NCBI GenBank assembly: GCA_013299105.1
Contig: JAAFJY010000009.1
Location: 1-64,000 of the forward strand
Origin: Chitinophagales bacterium
GTDB taxonomy: Bacteria > Bacteroidota > Bacteroidia > Chitinophagales > Saprospiraceae
Direction of reading: 5' to 3'
DNA: 64,000 nt
Every line of letters begins with the position of its first letter. Within the stretch, counting starts at the first letter, position 1. The notes under the pieces were generated by a model. It was given only the letters and a program-made list of their open reading frames with translations. It made no database searches and was not told the DNA's origin. Both the position numbers and the translations under genes were made by a program. Below, one piece after another: positions 22,206 through 51,107 of this stretch.

Positions 22206-25200
22206 ATGCTTTTGAAGATACCCATCCTGCGTAGTATTGTTTTTTGCTTGTGTTTGTATGTCGGGCATGAGCAGATGGGGCTACTGTATGCACAATTACC
22301 AAGCTATCACCTCCAAAACTTTGACAGCGATTCAGGGATTCGGCCCGGCATTATTCTGGCTATTGCACAAGATTGCAAAGGCTTCTTGTGGCTGATGGGA
22401 CCACGCATGGTGCAGTGTTTCGATGGCAAAACCACCCGCAATTATCCTTTGAATACTTACCCCATCCGCCTTTTTTGTGACAAACAAGACGGCGTATGGA
22501 TCAGCACCCACGACCAGATTTTGCGCTTTTCAGCCCCCAAAGGCCGCTTTGAACCCACTGCACTGCCTCCCATCGACTCTTTGGGCATGGTGATTGGCGT
22601 TTTTGAATTGCCCGACCACAGCATTTGGGCTTTGTGCATGAAAGGCCTTTTTCGTTGGCAACCCCGGCAGCAGGTTTTTCAAAAGGTGAAAATGGAAGTC
22701 CCTCCGCCATATAAGCCTGATATGCTTTTGACAAGGGGCTGGCAACTCTATTTCCATCAAGGCCCAAACGTGCAGGTGTACAACTTCAAAACCAAAGTCC
22801 TGCGCAGCCTTCCCGATCAAGGCCAGTTCCGCATTTTTCCCCTGAACGATGACCAAGCCCTGCAAAGTAATTGGGACAATGAGACTTGGTTTTTGGATTT
22901 TGCCCAAAAAACCGTCAAAAAACTTGAACTTCCATTAAAGCTGCGCGAAAATACGGAAGCTACCAACTTGCACACACGCGGAATTACGGCCATTGGGCAA
23001 AGTCAATTTTACCTCAGCGCCCGTGAAGGCAATTTTATTTATTCCCCTAAAACTGGCCAACTTCAGCCCATTACTTTTTATATGGCGGGGCTAGAGGTCA
23101 AGAGCAAAGATTTTGTCAATACCGTTTTTGACGACGGGAAGGGTTCTGCCTGGCTGGCCTCACCGGGTGGTTTACTGAAAATTGATTTCTTGAAATCGCG
23201 CATGGGCTTGTTGAGAGCGCCAAAAGAACGGCCTGATGCCACCCATGCCCGTTTGAACGCGGTCAGGCGCATGGTGGAGGATGAAAAAGGCCGCTTGTGG
23301 TTGGCTACCGGGCATGGATTGGCTTGTTACGAACAGGGCAAAAACGATTGGTTTTTCATTCCACCCCGGCAAGGTGACCCGCGCTACATGGCCCATCCAT
23401 CGCTGATCAGCATGATTTATGATGGCAAGAACTTGCTCATCGGGGCTGCGGGCATGGGCTTGTGGTTGATGAATACCGATACCCGCCAATTTCAAAGGCC
23501 CAGGTACCCGCACGATTCCATCCGACTAGCCAGCGAAGCCGATTTTTTCGACGATATCCTCAGCCTGCGCAATGGGGACCACCTGCTCATGGGGCGAGAT
23601 CAGCTGTATTTGCTGGATGGAAAAAATTACATCTTGCATTTTGTTGAAACTCCAGCGGGAAGGGAAAATACCAATTATGCATGGCAAGATCCGCAAGGGC
23701 TCATTTGGTTGGCTACCACCAAGGGTTTGTATTGCTTAGACGAAAAATTCAAGGTCCTGGCCAACCGCATCAACACTTCAATCGACGATCTATTGACTGC
23801 GGGATACATGAGAAAGGATGGTCAATTGCTGTTTTGCAGCCTTAAAGGTTTATTTTTGGCCAAACTGGAAAATGGGCAAATTCGCACGCAAAAGCAAGGC
23901 TCATTTTTTGAAAAACAGATGAACACCATTCTCTACCAAGACGACTCTGGTACCATTTGGGCTGCTGGTGATGAAGGTATTGTGCGCATGGATGGCAAAA
24001 CCAAACGCCTGCTAAAATTTGACCACAGTGACAACCTCCAGGGTTATGCCTTCAATGCCAAATCCGTTTTACACAATCGAGCAGGGCAATTGCTTTTTGG
24101 CGGCAACAATGGCATCAATTACGTTGACCTCAAAGGTTTTGATGTCAAAAAAACGCAATCACCCGTTTTTTTTCAACGCGTTTGCATTGATGGCATCGAT
24201 ACGCTTTACCAATCTTCTAAACAGGAAATTTGCTTGAAGCCCGGCGACCATTACTTGCTTTTGGAGTACGCAGTGCCCTATTTCAACAATCCTGATAAAA
24301 TCTCCTATCGTTACAAGTTAGAAGGCTTGGAAGAAAATTGGCAAGGTCTGGGGAAAGAACGAATTTTGCAAATCAGTCGTTTGCCCGTTGGCCGTTACCG
24401 CCTGCTCTTGCAAGCGAGCTTAAACGGCTTAGATTGGGAGACTTCAAAAGACCAGCTTGCATTTAGCGTAGCTGCACCCATCTGGCAAAGACCCTGGATG
24501 ATTACTGTGTTTTTGGGGATACTGGTCTTTGGCATTTGGTGGTTTGTACGCCTGCGCAACCGGCAAGTGCAGGAAAAGGAGGAAGAGTTAGAAGCAGAGC
24601 AGGCCATCAATTATTTCGCCTCCAGCATTTATTCCCAAAGTACGGTGGATGCCATTCTTTGGGACGTGGCCCGCAACTGCATTGGCCGTTTGCAATTTGA
24701 AGACTGTGTAGTTTATCTTTTGGATGAAAAAAACCAGACCTTGGTGCAAAAAGCAGCACATGGCCCCAAAAGCCCCCGGCATTACGAGATTACGCGACCG
24801 ATCGAGATTCCGATTGGCCGGGGAATTGTAGGGAGCGTAGCTGCTAGTGGCCGTGCTGAAATCGTGCCCGATACCCGCAAGGATCCACGGTACATTGTGG
24901 ACGATGCGGCAAGGTTGTCAGAAATTTCGGTTCCCATCATTTTTGATGGAAAAGTGCTGGGCGTAATCGATTGCGAGCACTCGGCTTTGAATTTTTTCAC
25001 TTCCAAACACCATTCGGTTTTGACCACCATCGCTTCACTTTGTGCCAATAAAATTGTACGGGCCAAAGCCGAAGAAGAAAAAGAATTGGCCAAACAAAGC
25101 CTGACCGATGCCCGCCAGCGCATGCGCGAAGTTGAAATGCAAGCCTTGAGAGCCCAGATGAATCCCCATTTTATTTTCAATTGCCTCAACTCGATCAACC

Positions 25201-25760
25201 GCTATATCGTCAAAAGCGACCAAGCTACCGCTTCACTTTACCTGACCCGTTTTGCCAAACTCATCCGCCTGATTCTCGACAATTCCAATAGTGAAAATGT
25301 GGTGTTGACCAATGAACTGGAAGCTTTGAAATTGTACATCGAAATGGAATCCCTGCGTTTTGCCGAAAAATTCAATTGGCAAGTTACGGTGGAGGAAGGT
25401 GTGAACCTGGATACCATTGAAGTGCCTCCCATGATCATCCAACCCTTTGTGGAAAATGCCATTTGGCATGGCTTGTTGCACTTAGAAAAACCAGGTTCCT
25501 TGTTGGTGAAATTAAGCCTGAATGGGCACAACATGCTGGAATGCGTAATCGAAGACAATGGCATTGGCCGCGAAAAAGCCCGTGAGCTGAAAAGCAAAAC
25601 GGCTACTACCCGAAAATCTTTGGGTATGCGCCTGACCGAAGATCGCCTGAGCCTCCTCAACCAAAACGCTCAGCTCAATGCGGGCATTCGCATTGAGGAC
25701 TTGAAAGACGCGCAAGGCCAAGCCTGTGGAACCAGGGTGACTTTGCAAATCCCGATTTGA
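22206..25760 (+). CDS. Hybrid propeller sensor histidine kinase (reg_prop, Y_Y_Y, GAF, LytS-type kinase)
   Basis: A 1184-residue sensor. A signal-like N-terminus precedes many two-component-propeller repeats (blade ends such as GSAWLASPGGLLKID, GRLWLATGHGLACY and GLIWLATTKGLYCL), then a Y_Y_Y domain (KISYRYKLEGLEENWQGLG), one membrane helix (~764-784), a short coiled coil, a cytoplasmic GAF domain (~810-950) and a His_kinase module with the phospho-accepting His988 in QMNPHFIFNCLNSINRY, then HATPase motifs VENAIWHGLL and EDNGIGRE. The propeller probably senses an extracytoplasmic, often glycan-related, signal. The cognate LytTR regulator follows, separated by repeat R2. Confidence 0.92.
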   Translation: MLLKIPILRSIVFCLCLYVGHEQMGLLYAQLPSYHLQNFDSDSGIRPGIILAIAQDCKGFLWLMGPRMVQCFDGKTTRNYPLNTYPIRLFCDKQDGVWISTHDQILRFSAPKGRFEPTALPPIDSLGMVIGVFELPDHSIWALCMKGLFRWQPRQQVFQKVKMEVPPPYKPDMLLTRGWQLYFHQGPNVQVYNFKTKVLRSLPDQGQFRIFPLNDDQALQSNWDNETWFLDFAQKTVKKLELPLKLRENTEATNLHTRGITAIGQSQFYLSAREGNFIYSPKTGQLQPITFYMAGLEVKSKDFVNTVFDDGKGSAWLASPGGLLKIDFLKSRMGLLRAPKERPDATHARLNAVRRMVEDEKGRLWLATGHGLACYEQGKNDWFFIPPRQGDPRYMAHPSLISMIYDGKNLLIGAAGMGLWLMNTDTRQFQRPRYPHDSIRLASEADFFDDILSLRNGDHLLMGRDQLYLLDGKNYILHFVETPAGRENTNYAWQDPQGLIWLATTKGLYCLDEKFKVLANRINTSIDDLLTAGYMRKDGQLLFCSLKGLFLAKLENGQIRTQKQGSFFEKQMNTILYQDDSGTIWAAGDEGIVRMDGKTKRLLKFDHSDNLQGYAFNAKSVLHNRAGQLLFGGNNGINYVDLKGFDVKKTQSPVFFQRVCIDGIDTLYQSSKQEICLKPGDHYLLLEYAVPYFNNPDKISYRYKLEGLEENWQGLGKERILQISRLPVGRYRLLLQASLNGLDWETSKDQLAFSVAAPIWQRPWMITVFLGILVFGIWWFVRLRNRQVQEKEEELEAEQAINYFASSIYSQSTVDAILWDVARNCIGRLQFEDCVVYLLDEKNQTLVQKAAHGPKSPRHYEITRPIEIPIGRGIVGSVAASGRAEIVPDTRKDPRYIVDDAARLSEISVPIIFDGKVLGVIDCEHSALNFFTSKHHSVLTTIASLCANKIVRAKAEEEKELAKQSLTDARQRMREVEMQALRAQMNPHFIFNCLNSINRYIVKSDQATASLYLTRFAKLIRLILDNSNSENVVLTNELEALKLYIEMESLRFAEKFNWQVTVEEGVNLDTIEVPPMIIQPFVENAIWHGLLHLEKPGSLLVKLSLNGHNMLECVIEDNGIGREKARELKSKTATTRKSLGMRLTEDRLSLLNQNAQLNAGIRIEDLKDAQGQACGTRVTLQIPI

Positions 25761-25762
25761 AC

Positions 25763-25929
25763 TTAGAGCATGTTTAAAATTTTTTGTTTGCTATAAAACG
25801 GACCAATTTCGCCTACTCTTTGTTAGGAAAATGCTCATTATGCGCTGCATAACTCCGCTTTTCCTGCCTCGAGTAGTCAAAATTTGCCTCGTTTTCTGAC
25901 TAAACCTCCAATATTTAAACATACTCTTA
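25763..25929 (+). repeat. Palindromic repeat element R2, copy A
   Basis: 167 bp with terminal inverted repeats TTAGAGCATGTTTAAA / TTTAAACATACTCTTA. It begins 2 bp after the kinase stop and ends 20 bp before the regulator start. The core contains TTATGC-GCT-GCATAA (25838-25852), conserved in all three copies. Confidence 0.85.
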
Positions 25930-25949: not shown

Positions 25950-26702
25950 ATGATCCGCTGTATTCTCATCGACGACGAAAGCAATAGCCTGGAAATGATG
26001 GAATGGCTACTGCAAACCTACTGCCCCGAAGTGCAAATCCTGGCCCAGTGCAACAGCGCTGAAACTGGCATCAAAGCCATTCGCGAACTTCAGCCAGATG
26101 TCATTTTTCTTGACATTGAAATGCCCCACATGAATGGATTCGACATGCTGGAGCAGTTCGAACGACTCAATTTTGATGTAGTATTTTGTACGGCTTATGA
26201 CCAATTTGCACTCAAAGCTTTTCGGTACAGCGCCCTCAATTACTTGCTCAAACCCATCGACCCTGACGATTTGAAAGCCACCGTGCAGCGCATCGCTGAG
26301 AGACAACAAGCCCCTTCACGCGAGCAGATTGATATGTTACTACAAACCATGAAGCAAAGCCTGCCACGCAGCACTCCTCCCAGAATTGCCCTTACCACTG
26401 GCGATGGTTTGATTTTTGTAGCTACCCAAGATATTTTGTATTGCGAGGCCGAGAGCAATTACACTAAAGTAGTCATGTCTAATAACCGCAAAATTTTGGT
26501 CGCCAAAGTATTAAAGGAGATCGACGACGCTTTGTCAGGGGAGGATTTTTTCCGCATCCACAATTCCTTCTTGATCAATGTCAACCACATCAAACGCTTT
26601 GTACGTGGCGATGGAGGCTATGTGGTGATGGACGATGATACTTCAATCACCATTTCACGCTCAAGGAGGCAAGCGTTCATGGACATGTTTCCTAGGTTTT
26701 AG
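25950..26702 (+). CDS. LytTR-family response regulator
   Basis: A 250-residue regulator. It has a receiver domain with acidic pocket DDE (9-10) and phospho-acceptor Asp55 (IFLDIEMPHM), Lys in YLLKPI, then a LytTR DNA-binding domain (~150-250) with EAESNYTKV, FFRIHNSFLINVNHI and GDGGYVVM. It is the likely partner of the large kinase upstream. The start is at 25950 (MIRCILIDDE); an upstream in-frame ATG at 25884 lies inside repeat R2 and is not homologous. Confidence 0.93.
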   Translation: MIRCILIDDESNSLEMMEWLLQTYCPEVQILAQCNSAETGIKAIRELQPDVIFLDIEMPHMNGFDMLEQFERLNFDVVFCTAYDQFALKAFRYSALNYLLKPIDPDDLKATVQRIAERQQAPSREQIDMLLQTMKQSLPRSTPPRIALTTGDGLIFVATQDILYCEAESNYTKVVMSNNRKILVAKVLKEIDDALSGEDFFRIHNSFLINVNHIKRFVRGDGGYVVMDDDTSITISRSRRQAFMDMFPRF

Positions 26703-32121: not shown

Positions 32122-32286
32122 TTAGAGTAGTTTAAAATTTTTTGTTTGCCACAAAACGGCCCAATTTCGCCTATTCTTCGTTAGGAAAATGCTCATTATG
32201 CGCTGCATAACTCCGCTTTTCCTGCCTCGACTAGCCAAAATTTGCCTCTTTTCTGTCTAAACCTCCAATATTTAAACACACTCTTA
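32122..32286 (+). repeat. Palindromic repeat element R2, copy B
   Basis: 165 bp, very similar to copy A at 25763-25929, with the core TTATGCGCTGCATAA at 32196-32210. Its right end supplies the stop codon (TAA, 32284-32286 on the minus strand) of the neighbouring gene. Confidence 0.85.
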
Positions 32287-50932: not shown

Positions 50933-51106
50933 TAAGAGTATGTTTAAAAATTTTTTGTTTGGCCCAAAATGGCTCCGCCTAAGTCTTGATTTACGCCGTT
51001 CCAAAAATGCTCATTATGCGTTGCATAACTCCGCTTTTTGCGCCTCGACTAGTCGAAAACGTGCTCATTTTGACTTCAATCCTAAATTTTAGATAGACAT
51101 CCTCTA
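50933..51106 (+). repeat. Palindromic repeat element R2, copy C (diverged)
   Basis: 174 bp; left terminus TAAGAGTATGTTTAAA is intact, the right terminus has decayed. The core TTATGC-GTT-GCATAA (51014-51028) is retained. It ends within 2 bp of an R3 copy, and its left end is 28 bp from the amidase start. Confidence 0.75.
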
Positions 51107-51107
51107 A

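Follow-up and report, generated by a model that had tools for sequence, protein, structure and literature searches.

A portable hairpin module with variable stems and constant unpaired loops in the R2 repeats of a Chitinophagales bacterium and in short mobile elements with other ends

Integron attC sites are imperfect palindromes of variable sequence and conserved structure, with fixed unpaired positions, in which the folded bottom strand is read; they carry the core sites RYYYAAC/GTTRRRY and recombine by integrase in cassette arrays. Several groups of short mobile repeats are described in the sources cited here, of which parts were consulted. MITEPsy1 of Pseudomonas syringae is a short element with no gene, inverted ends (GGAAGGTCTGAAAAAGCC) matching the IS5 family and a short target duplication, which is CTAG or YTAA in elements of this type (PMC3189936), and MITE-like repeats have been described in P. 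fluorescens (PMC2718517). Correia/NEMIS, ERIC and CIR elements measure 100–200 bp, form a long imperfect hairpin and occur each in one bacterial group, and some small mobile repeats carry a conserved internal motif such as the IHF site in Correia or GANTC in CIR (PMC2229807). REP palindromes, which are linked to RAYT transposases, are hairpin repeats with a GTAG or CGTC tag; in some of them, such as the GTAG-24 repeats of P. aeruginosa with their unpaired GA, an internal mismatch is fixed (PMC3733652).

The repeat R2 described here has features of all these systems. It resembles MITEPsy1 in its short length, absence of genes, IS5-family-matching inverted ends and short target duplication, a likeness drawn from ends and size; the ends of the two elements differ, the target duplication of R2 is TNA and R2 contains a structured core that it shares with MITEs of other end types. 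Like Correia/NEMIS, ERIC and CIR it lies within 100–200 bp and forms a long imperfect hairpin, but its inner module crosses element types and phyla and has covarying stems. It shares with REP palindromes the hairpin and, with some of them, a fixed internal mismatch; in place of their tag it has the ends and target duplications of a transposon, and an alignment of 50 modules showed neither GTAG nor CGTC as a constant sequence beside the hairpin. As in attC sites, the stems of the module are variable and certain unpaired positions are fixed; unlike attC sites, R2 inserts with target duplications, which argues for DDE transposition rather than integron recombination. The consulted parts of PMC2718517, PMC3189936, PMC2229807 and PMC3733652 contain no mention of a module shared between element families, and among the papers listed by a search of the open-licence PMC literature for the letters of the element none was recognized by its title as dealing with R2, an earlier description elsewhere being possible.

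R2 was noticed in the window, i.e., the whole stretch of 64,000 nucleotides that was analyzed, where the original prediction described three copies with terminal inverted repeats in a MITE-like frame around a fixed palindrome. All three copies (159–169 bp each) were confirmed where it had placed them, and each is flanked by 3-bp direct repeats; in copy C the right TAA duplication ends at 51107, one base past the end first proposed. The 15-bp core (25838-25852 in copy A, 32196-32210 in B and 51014-51028 in C) is, as had been claimed, identical in copies A and B and different by one base in C. The longer pattern of core plus flanks has exactly 3 matches in the window, against 0.10 expected by chance with up to 3 mismatches allowed. 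The parts of the three copies, with the MITE limits read from the sequence, are as follows:

25766-25926, minus strand: copy A, MITE flanked by a TTA target duplication (25763-25765 and 25927-25929); the strand that folds is the minus strand
25830-25858, minus strand: copy A, inner module with TGCTCA loop strand, TTATGC-GCT-GCATAA hairpin and CTCCGC loop strand (GCGGAG-hairpin-TGAGCA on the minus strand)
25866-25871, no strand assigned: copy A, right strand (GCCTCG) of the second internal loop; the left strand of this loop, at 25820-25824, is TTGTT, a variant of CGTT
32125-32283, minus strand: copy B, MITE with TTA duplications at 32122-32124 and 32284-32286 (also row L024 of the element set)
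32188-32216, minus strand: copy B, inner module; its second loop consists of CGTT (32179-32182) and GCCTCG (32224-32229)
50936-51104, minus strand: copy C, MITE with TAA duplications at 50933-50935 and 51105-51107 and a degenerate right end
51006-51034, minus strand: copy C, inner module with TTATGC-GTT-GCATAA hairpin; second loop strands CGTT at 50997-51000 and GCCTCG at 51042-51047

Copy A has 40 genomic matches of at least 88% identity (40 scored of 208 candidates). It lies between the end of an ORF of 1184 aa (22206-25760) and an ATG at 25951, the product of the ORF starting there resembling, by eye, a LytTR-type response regulator; the MITE may separate partner genes.

A search for core and termini through the host genome (G000; 7.67 Mb, genus of Haliscomenobacter hydrossis), along the lines suggested in the original prediction, found 116 exact flanked cores (62 forward and 54 reverse), against none for the reversed pattern used as a control, and 53 places with the left end. 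The genome thus contains at least 116 copies. Over the 108 distinct elements read (the core places listed being the first 100 of the 116), mean identity was 0.994 in the core vs. 0.83 in the rest, these copies having been selected by their exact core. When places were selected by the left end only (52 of the 53), 38 had an exact core, 5 a core with one mismatch, 2 a core with 3–4 mismatches and 7 no recognizable core. Within the 45 copies so selected that have a core, mean pairwise ungapped identity reached 0.97 over the 18 constant letters vs. 0.59 and 0.67 in the 40 nt on either side, the last two values being depressed by indels. The claim that the core is better conserved than the remainder was thus borne out, and with many copies aligned it did not fall to the level of its flanks.

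Identical 3-bp flanks, mostly TNA (TTA or TAA), border 58 of 100 elements of the host genome (the count excludes 8 of the 108 that lack two recognizable ends), compared with a mean of 24.4 and a maximum of 43 in 5,000 shuffles of the right flanks. Four copies (L312–L315) of an element of the IS5 family, about 0.9 kb long and with ends GAGTATGTTCAAAATTTTTTG, are present in H. hydrossis, and a second sister species has one related copy (L303) with ends GAGCATGTCTAAA. TNA target duplications were found in all five of these copies, and the terminal inverted repeat GAGTATGTT[TC]AAAATTTTTTG is common to the R2 MITE and the IS5-family element. The transposase of L312, the one IS protein scanned, matches NF033580 (E 3e-47) and PF13340 plus PF01609. 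Given the matching ends and the TNA duplications, R2 is a MITE of the IS5 type, and the same two features show that it is moved in trans by an IS5-family transposase. R2 has no coding capacity, as its 159–169 bp are too short for a transposase and ORFs of at least 120 aa merely cross the edge of a copy. As to an autonomous partner in the host genome, none of its 8 DDE_Tnp_1 hits has R2-like ends on both sides, and the one relative found of the H. hydrossis transposase, at 38%, is at a locus with other inverted repeats. Two loci of this genome were also recorded: an IS5-type transposase gene (L268, contig C1, approximately 271.7–272.5 kb; PF01609, PF13586) at a locus with CCGTTTTAAAAT inverted repeats, unlike the ends of R2, and a stretch of about 500 bp (L143:7731-8234, contig C33) with R2-like ends (GAGCATGTTTAAA and its inverse) and no intact module, which is possibly a longer non-autonomous relative of R2.

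The inner module is arranged outward from an apical hairpin, followed by TGCTCA facing CTCCGC, a second stem of free sequence, and CGTT facing GCCTYG. Its constant parts are the unpaired flanks TGCTCA and CTCCGC and, further out, CGTT and GCCTYG; on the minus strand of the window these form two purine-rich internal loops, GCGGAG/TGAGCA (loop 1, with a 5'-GA/3'-AG tandem mismatch) and RAGGC/AACG (loop 2). The constancy of loop 1 is freely tested in the host genome only, since in other genomes the exact pattern used for searching prescribed its letters.

The palindrome is nearly fixed in the host genome yet variable elsewhere, its two arms changing together. The sister genomes G001–G004 have mostly TTTAGC-GCT-GCTAAA instead of the TTATGC-GCT-GCATAA of the host, and other genomes carry between the constant AATGCTCATT and AACTCCGC arms such as TTTAC/GTAAA, TTTAG/CTAAA, TTGGC/GCCAA and TTGAC/GTCAA, among others. 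In 105 distinct inserts (from 171 elements) 313 of the 315 arm pairs of the apical stem are Watson–Crick, 2 are of other kinds and none is G-T or A-C, the insert between the constant flanks measuring 10, 11, 12, 13 or 16 nt. One-sided arm changes amount to three among 109 listed places, with two more and one other mismatch in a second listing. All three arm pairs are present in 109 of 111 pattern matches from cellular genomes, in contrast to viral contigs (L372–L394) taken as a control, where 17 of 23 matches have zero or one arm pair, as chance expects, and 6 have three; the module is nearly absent from the viral-contig collection examined. The idea of the palindrome as a species-specific code was dropped, given that several arm versions coexist in G412, G413 and G414.

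These results bear on the proposal, made in the original prediction, that the fixed palindrome could be a protein-binding site. A binding partner is likely in our view; the palindrome itself varies in sequence across genomes with its pairing kept, and the spacing of the constant flanks varies as well. The comparison across genomes thus does not bear out a fixed palindrome that serves as an ordinary protein-binding site. A palindrome of changing sequence and conserved pairing between constant unpaired flanks is more readily explained if a folded strand is recognized than if the target is a rigid double-stranded palindrome.

Loop 2 was absent from the search pattern. Across 62 unfiltered clusters CGTT occurs 8–36 nt to the left of the core in 49, compared with 4 further left and 9 on the right side, and GCCT occurs to the right of the core in 47 vs. 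19 further right and 3 on the left. Loop 1 and loop 2 are separated by 5/7 nt in 72 of 96 elements of the host genome, 20 of 24 of its genus mates and all three in genome G025. For the 135 other elements the left distance is 14–15 nt in 87, 13 in 2, 4 in 4 and 28–30 in 10 (undetected in 29, no value given for 3), and the right distance is 16–17 nt in 70 and 6–7 in 32, part of the latter representing GCCT inside stem 2. The step of 9–10 nt between the two commonest spacings is close to one helical turn and would suit a reading of the loops on a helix.

The fold was evaluated on an alignment of 50 diverse modules (of 59 cluster representatives, the 9 that had insertions or an unusual length were excluded). 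As the 59 representatives were drawn from 91 elements pre-filtered for CGTT and GCCT near the core, the conservation of loop 2 was taken from the unfiltered clusters instead. Under the RNAalifold structure 89.5% of the cells are paired vs. 67.0% in shuffled and 34–42% in slid alignments, and both sides are changed in 316 cells vs. 95.6 after shuffling; relatedness can exceed the shuffles, a weakness from which the slid control is free, although the alignment under test had also supplied the structure. Pairs in which both sides change number 19, which does not exceed the shuffles, as 87 of 500 reach this value.

With RNA energies the minus strand gives the more stable fold for 92/94, 114/117 and 15/15 sequences, and with DNA energies for 91/94, 109/117 and 15/15. 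Wobble pairs in stem 2 show no strand preference (30 sense vs. 29 antisense), so that the choice of strand rests on the energies of the loops themselves. Stem 2 contains 29 G-U pairs on the folded strand vs. 30 A-C mismatches in 1375 pairs (78 of 119 elements usable), and G-U is rare in the apical stem. Wobble counts over whole arms were rejected because the fixed loops are mixed into them. A table of the antisense fold in the host genome has 451 G-T vs. 165 A-C cells, 265 of the 451 at four pairs with a G-T consensus, the fold being derived from the same strand and the copies being related. Relative to neighboring genes the module has no clear orientation bias (22 vs. 15 in the broad set, 8 vs. 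6 in the host genome and 4 vs. 4 in its relatives) after exclusion of cores inside ORFs of at least 100 aa by a crude caller (16/79, 1/23 and 4/15, respectively). With regard to replication, the H. hydrossis chromosome, which starts at dnaA, gives a split of 14:9 between replichores, not significant; over five genomes the split is 61 vs. 47, but four of the records have no dnaA at their start, so that only 14:9 counts. A coding role for the module (a possible ATG-AGC-ATT start seen by eye on the minus strand) was rejected on account of the varying insert length and the disagreement of the reading frames.

A scan of bacterial genomes retrieved at least 116 stretches with the module pattern, 80 of them shown by name, and the taxa among the named matches include Pseudomonas, Stutzerimonas, Halomonadaceae, Nitrosomonadales, Mariprofundales, Bdellovibrio, Alistipes, Tannerellaceae, Prevotellaceae, Chitinophaga and others. 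The copy number rises to 171 in a Nitrosomonadales draft of 2.3 Mb; P. oryzihabitans YY7 has 35 copies and a Rikenellaceae draft has 34. The distribution is patchy: among 119 genomes of relatives 8 have a match, the host included (the five genomes of its genus, together with G025, which has 8 copies, G081, whose single core is paired, and G033, whose single insert is unpaired), and a wider sample of Bacteroidota gave, besides the host, 1 match in 295, which has a 4-nt insert and may be due to chance.

The ends that enclose the module are of several kinds. In G025 it stands between other ends with ANT duplications (three of three elements read by eye), and one copy on a Pseudomonas amygdali plasmid (L370) has a CTAG duplication. 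Module elements of Mariprofundales have GTAACTACTCAG ends and 8-bp duplications, which, in the 6 copies with both ends readable, are exact in 3 (GAAGATTT, CCTAAAAT and GAAAAAAT in L185, L226 and L324), match at 7 of 8 positions in one and are missing in 2, several of these readings using the outermost of serial end units. A duplication of 8 bp instead of 3 bp shows a different transposase for these elements. One of the Mariprofundales copies adjoins an IS66 transposase fragment (PF03050) that lies outside the duplication and hence does not show shared ends, and no intact IS66 was found for the Mariprofundales copies. Further end types occur in Rikenellaceae, Prevotellaceae, Nitrosomonadales, Bdellovibrio and Pseudomonas, with at least two in P. 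oryzihabitans YY7 alone. Taken together, the comparisons show that one central module is shared by elements of differing ends across lineages, with stems that covary and a second loop that persists. The Mariprofundales elements of L169, L185, L226 and L324 bear additional end units on the outside (GCTGAGTAGTTAC), spaced by about 32 bp, as though ends had been attached one after another.

A mechanism may be proposed on this basis. In single-stranded DNA (during replication, transfer or transposition) or upon cruciform extrusion, the minus strand of the window copies would fold into a long imperfect hairpin in which the stems would be nearly free in sequence and the two purine-rich loops would be fixed, for the most part with one of two spacings that differ by approximately a helical turn. 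A putative structure-reading protein, either common to the hosts or supplied by other mobile elements, would recognize both loops, perhaps on one face of the helix, and this recognition may raise the chance of the MITE being copied, kept or inserted. We infer that the folded strand is the working form, that a common factor reads its loops and that the element benefits. The account as a whole, i.e., a portable DNA-hairpin cassette whose folded strand is read by a putative factor and which aids MITEs of different transposases, seems to us about equally likely to hold or to fail. Its more detailed version is offered tentatively, as one that we would sooner expect to see revised than upheld: a portable single-stranded hairpin module in which nothing but the unpaired purine-rich loops is fixed may have been taken up by non-autonomous elements of two or more transposase kinds (3-bp and 8-bp duplications) across Pseudomonadota, Bacteroidota and Bdellovibrio, because it would recruit a putative conserved cellular factor able to read the folded strand.

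Other explanations are to be weighed against the hairpin cassette. A protein might bind AATGCTCATT, AACTCCGC, CGTT and GCCTYG in double-stranded DNA, as IHF does in Correia elements, the palindromy being a by-product of a fold-back MITE origin or of correction; the constant letters exist in duplex form as well, stem 2 has no strand-specific wobble and the two commonest loop spacings look helically phased. We regard such a duplex site as fairly unlikely, as a rigid complex could hardly tolerate inserts of such varied length and the constant letters coincide with the unpaired positions of the fold. Transcription of the minus strand would make the module a structured RNA involved in mRNA processing, a protein-binding RNA or a ribozyme, in agreement with a fold that is stable as RNA and with purine-rich loops whose tandem G-A mismatch looks RNA-like. 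However, structured RNAs normally show many G-U pairs, and here G-U is no commoner than A-C in stem 2 and rare in the apical stem; this scarcity and the lack of a clear gene-orientation bias favor DNA over RNA. Moreover, Rfam 15 detected one tRNA and no module match in the window and, in 8 module-bearing loci at E up to 5, gave 16 weak matches, none at the gathering score. An RNA element is thus unlikely.

The stems could also be paired for reasons other than function. Template-switch correction of quasi-palindromes is an established mutational process which could keep stems paired without selection on folding, and the module might then be a passive fossil, namely one ancient palindrome with ends swapped by recombination, stems paired by template switching and loops with no present function. 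The close likeness of copies within the host genome would agree with this; nevertheless, the second loop, although absent from the search pattern, has persisted across lineages whose stems are widely divergent, and correction alone should erase mismatched loops; what selection must be maintaining is the fixed loops. A fossil of this sort is quite improbable. The usual explanation of MITEs (PMC3189936, in the part consulted) would see in the center of R2 a remnant of the parental insertion sequence after internal deletion, and the ends of R2 do match an IS5-family element. The four constant 8-mers of the module are, however, all absent from the 4 IS copies scanned (L303, L312, L313 and L315, of 5), which indicates that the center is not left over from that IS5-family element, and the same module lies between ends of other kinds; an ordinary MITE core is accordingly very improbable.

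If the tentative version with a conserved cellular factor is true, bacterial MITEs would commonly carry the module as a plug-in, and it would represent a class of structure-read DNA signal new to the sources searched. The usual explanation of MITEs, as insertion sequences that have shrunk, gives their interior no importance; here the interior is the part shared across ends and phyla, and it carries a strong record of covariation. Were a factor to read the fold, this could shed light on which short elements attain a hundred copies or more, and it would provide a directly testable DNA-structure signal. Covariation with few G-T intermediates may, in turn, mark structures of DNA and not of RNA.

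Additional hairpins occur beside the constant loop in some elements. Some Nitrosomonadales copies (L157 and L172) have an extra hairpin of about 48 nt (GGGCGGC...GCCGCCC) in one arm, and extra small hairpins are found in the left arm of L165, L170, L213, L218 and L263, with Pokkaliibacter among the hosts.
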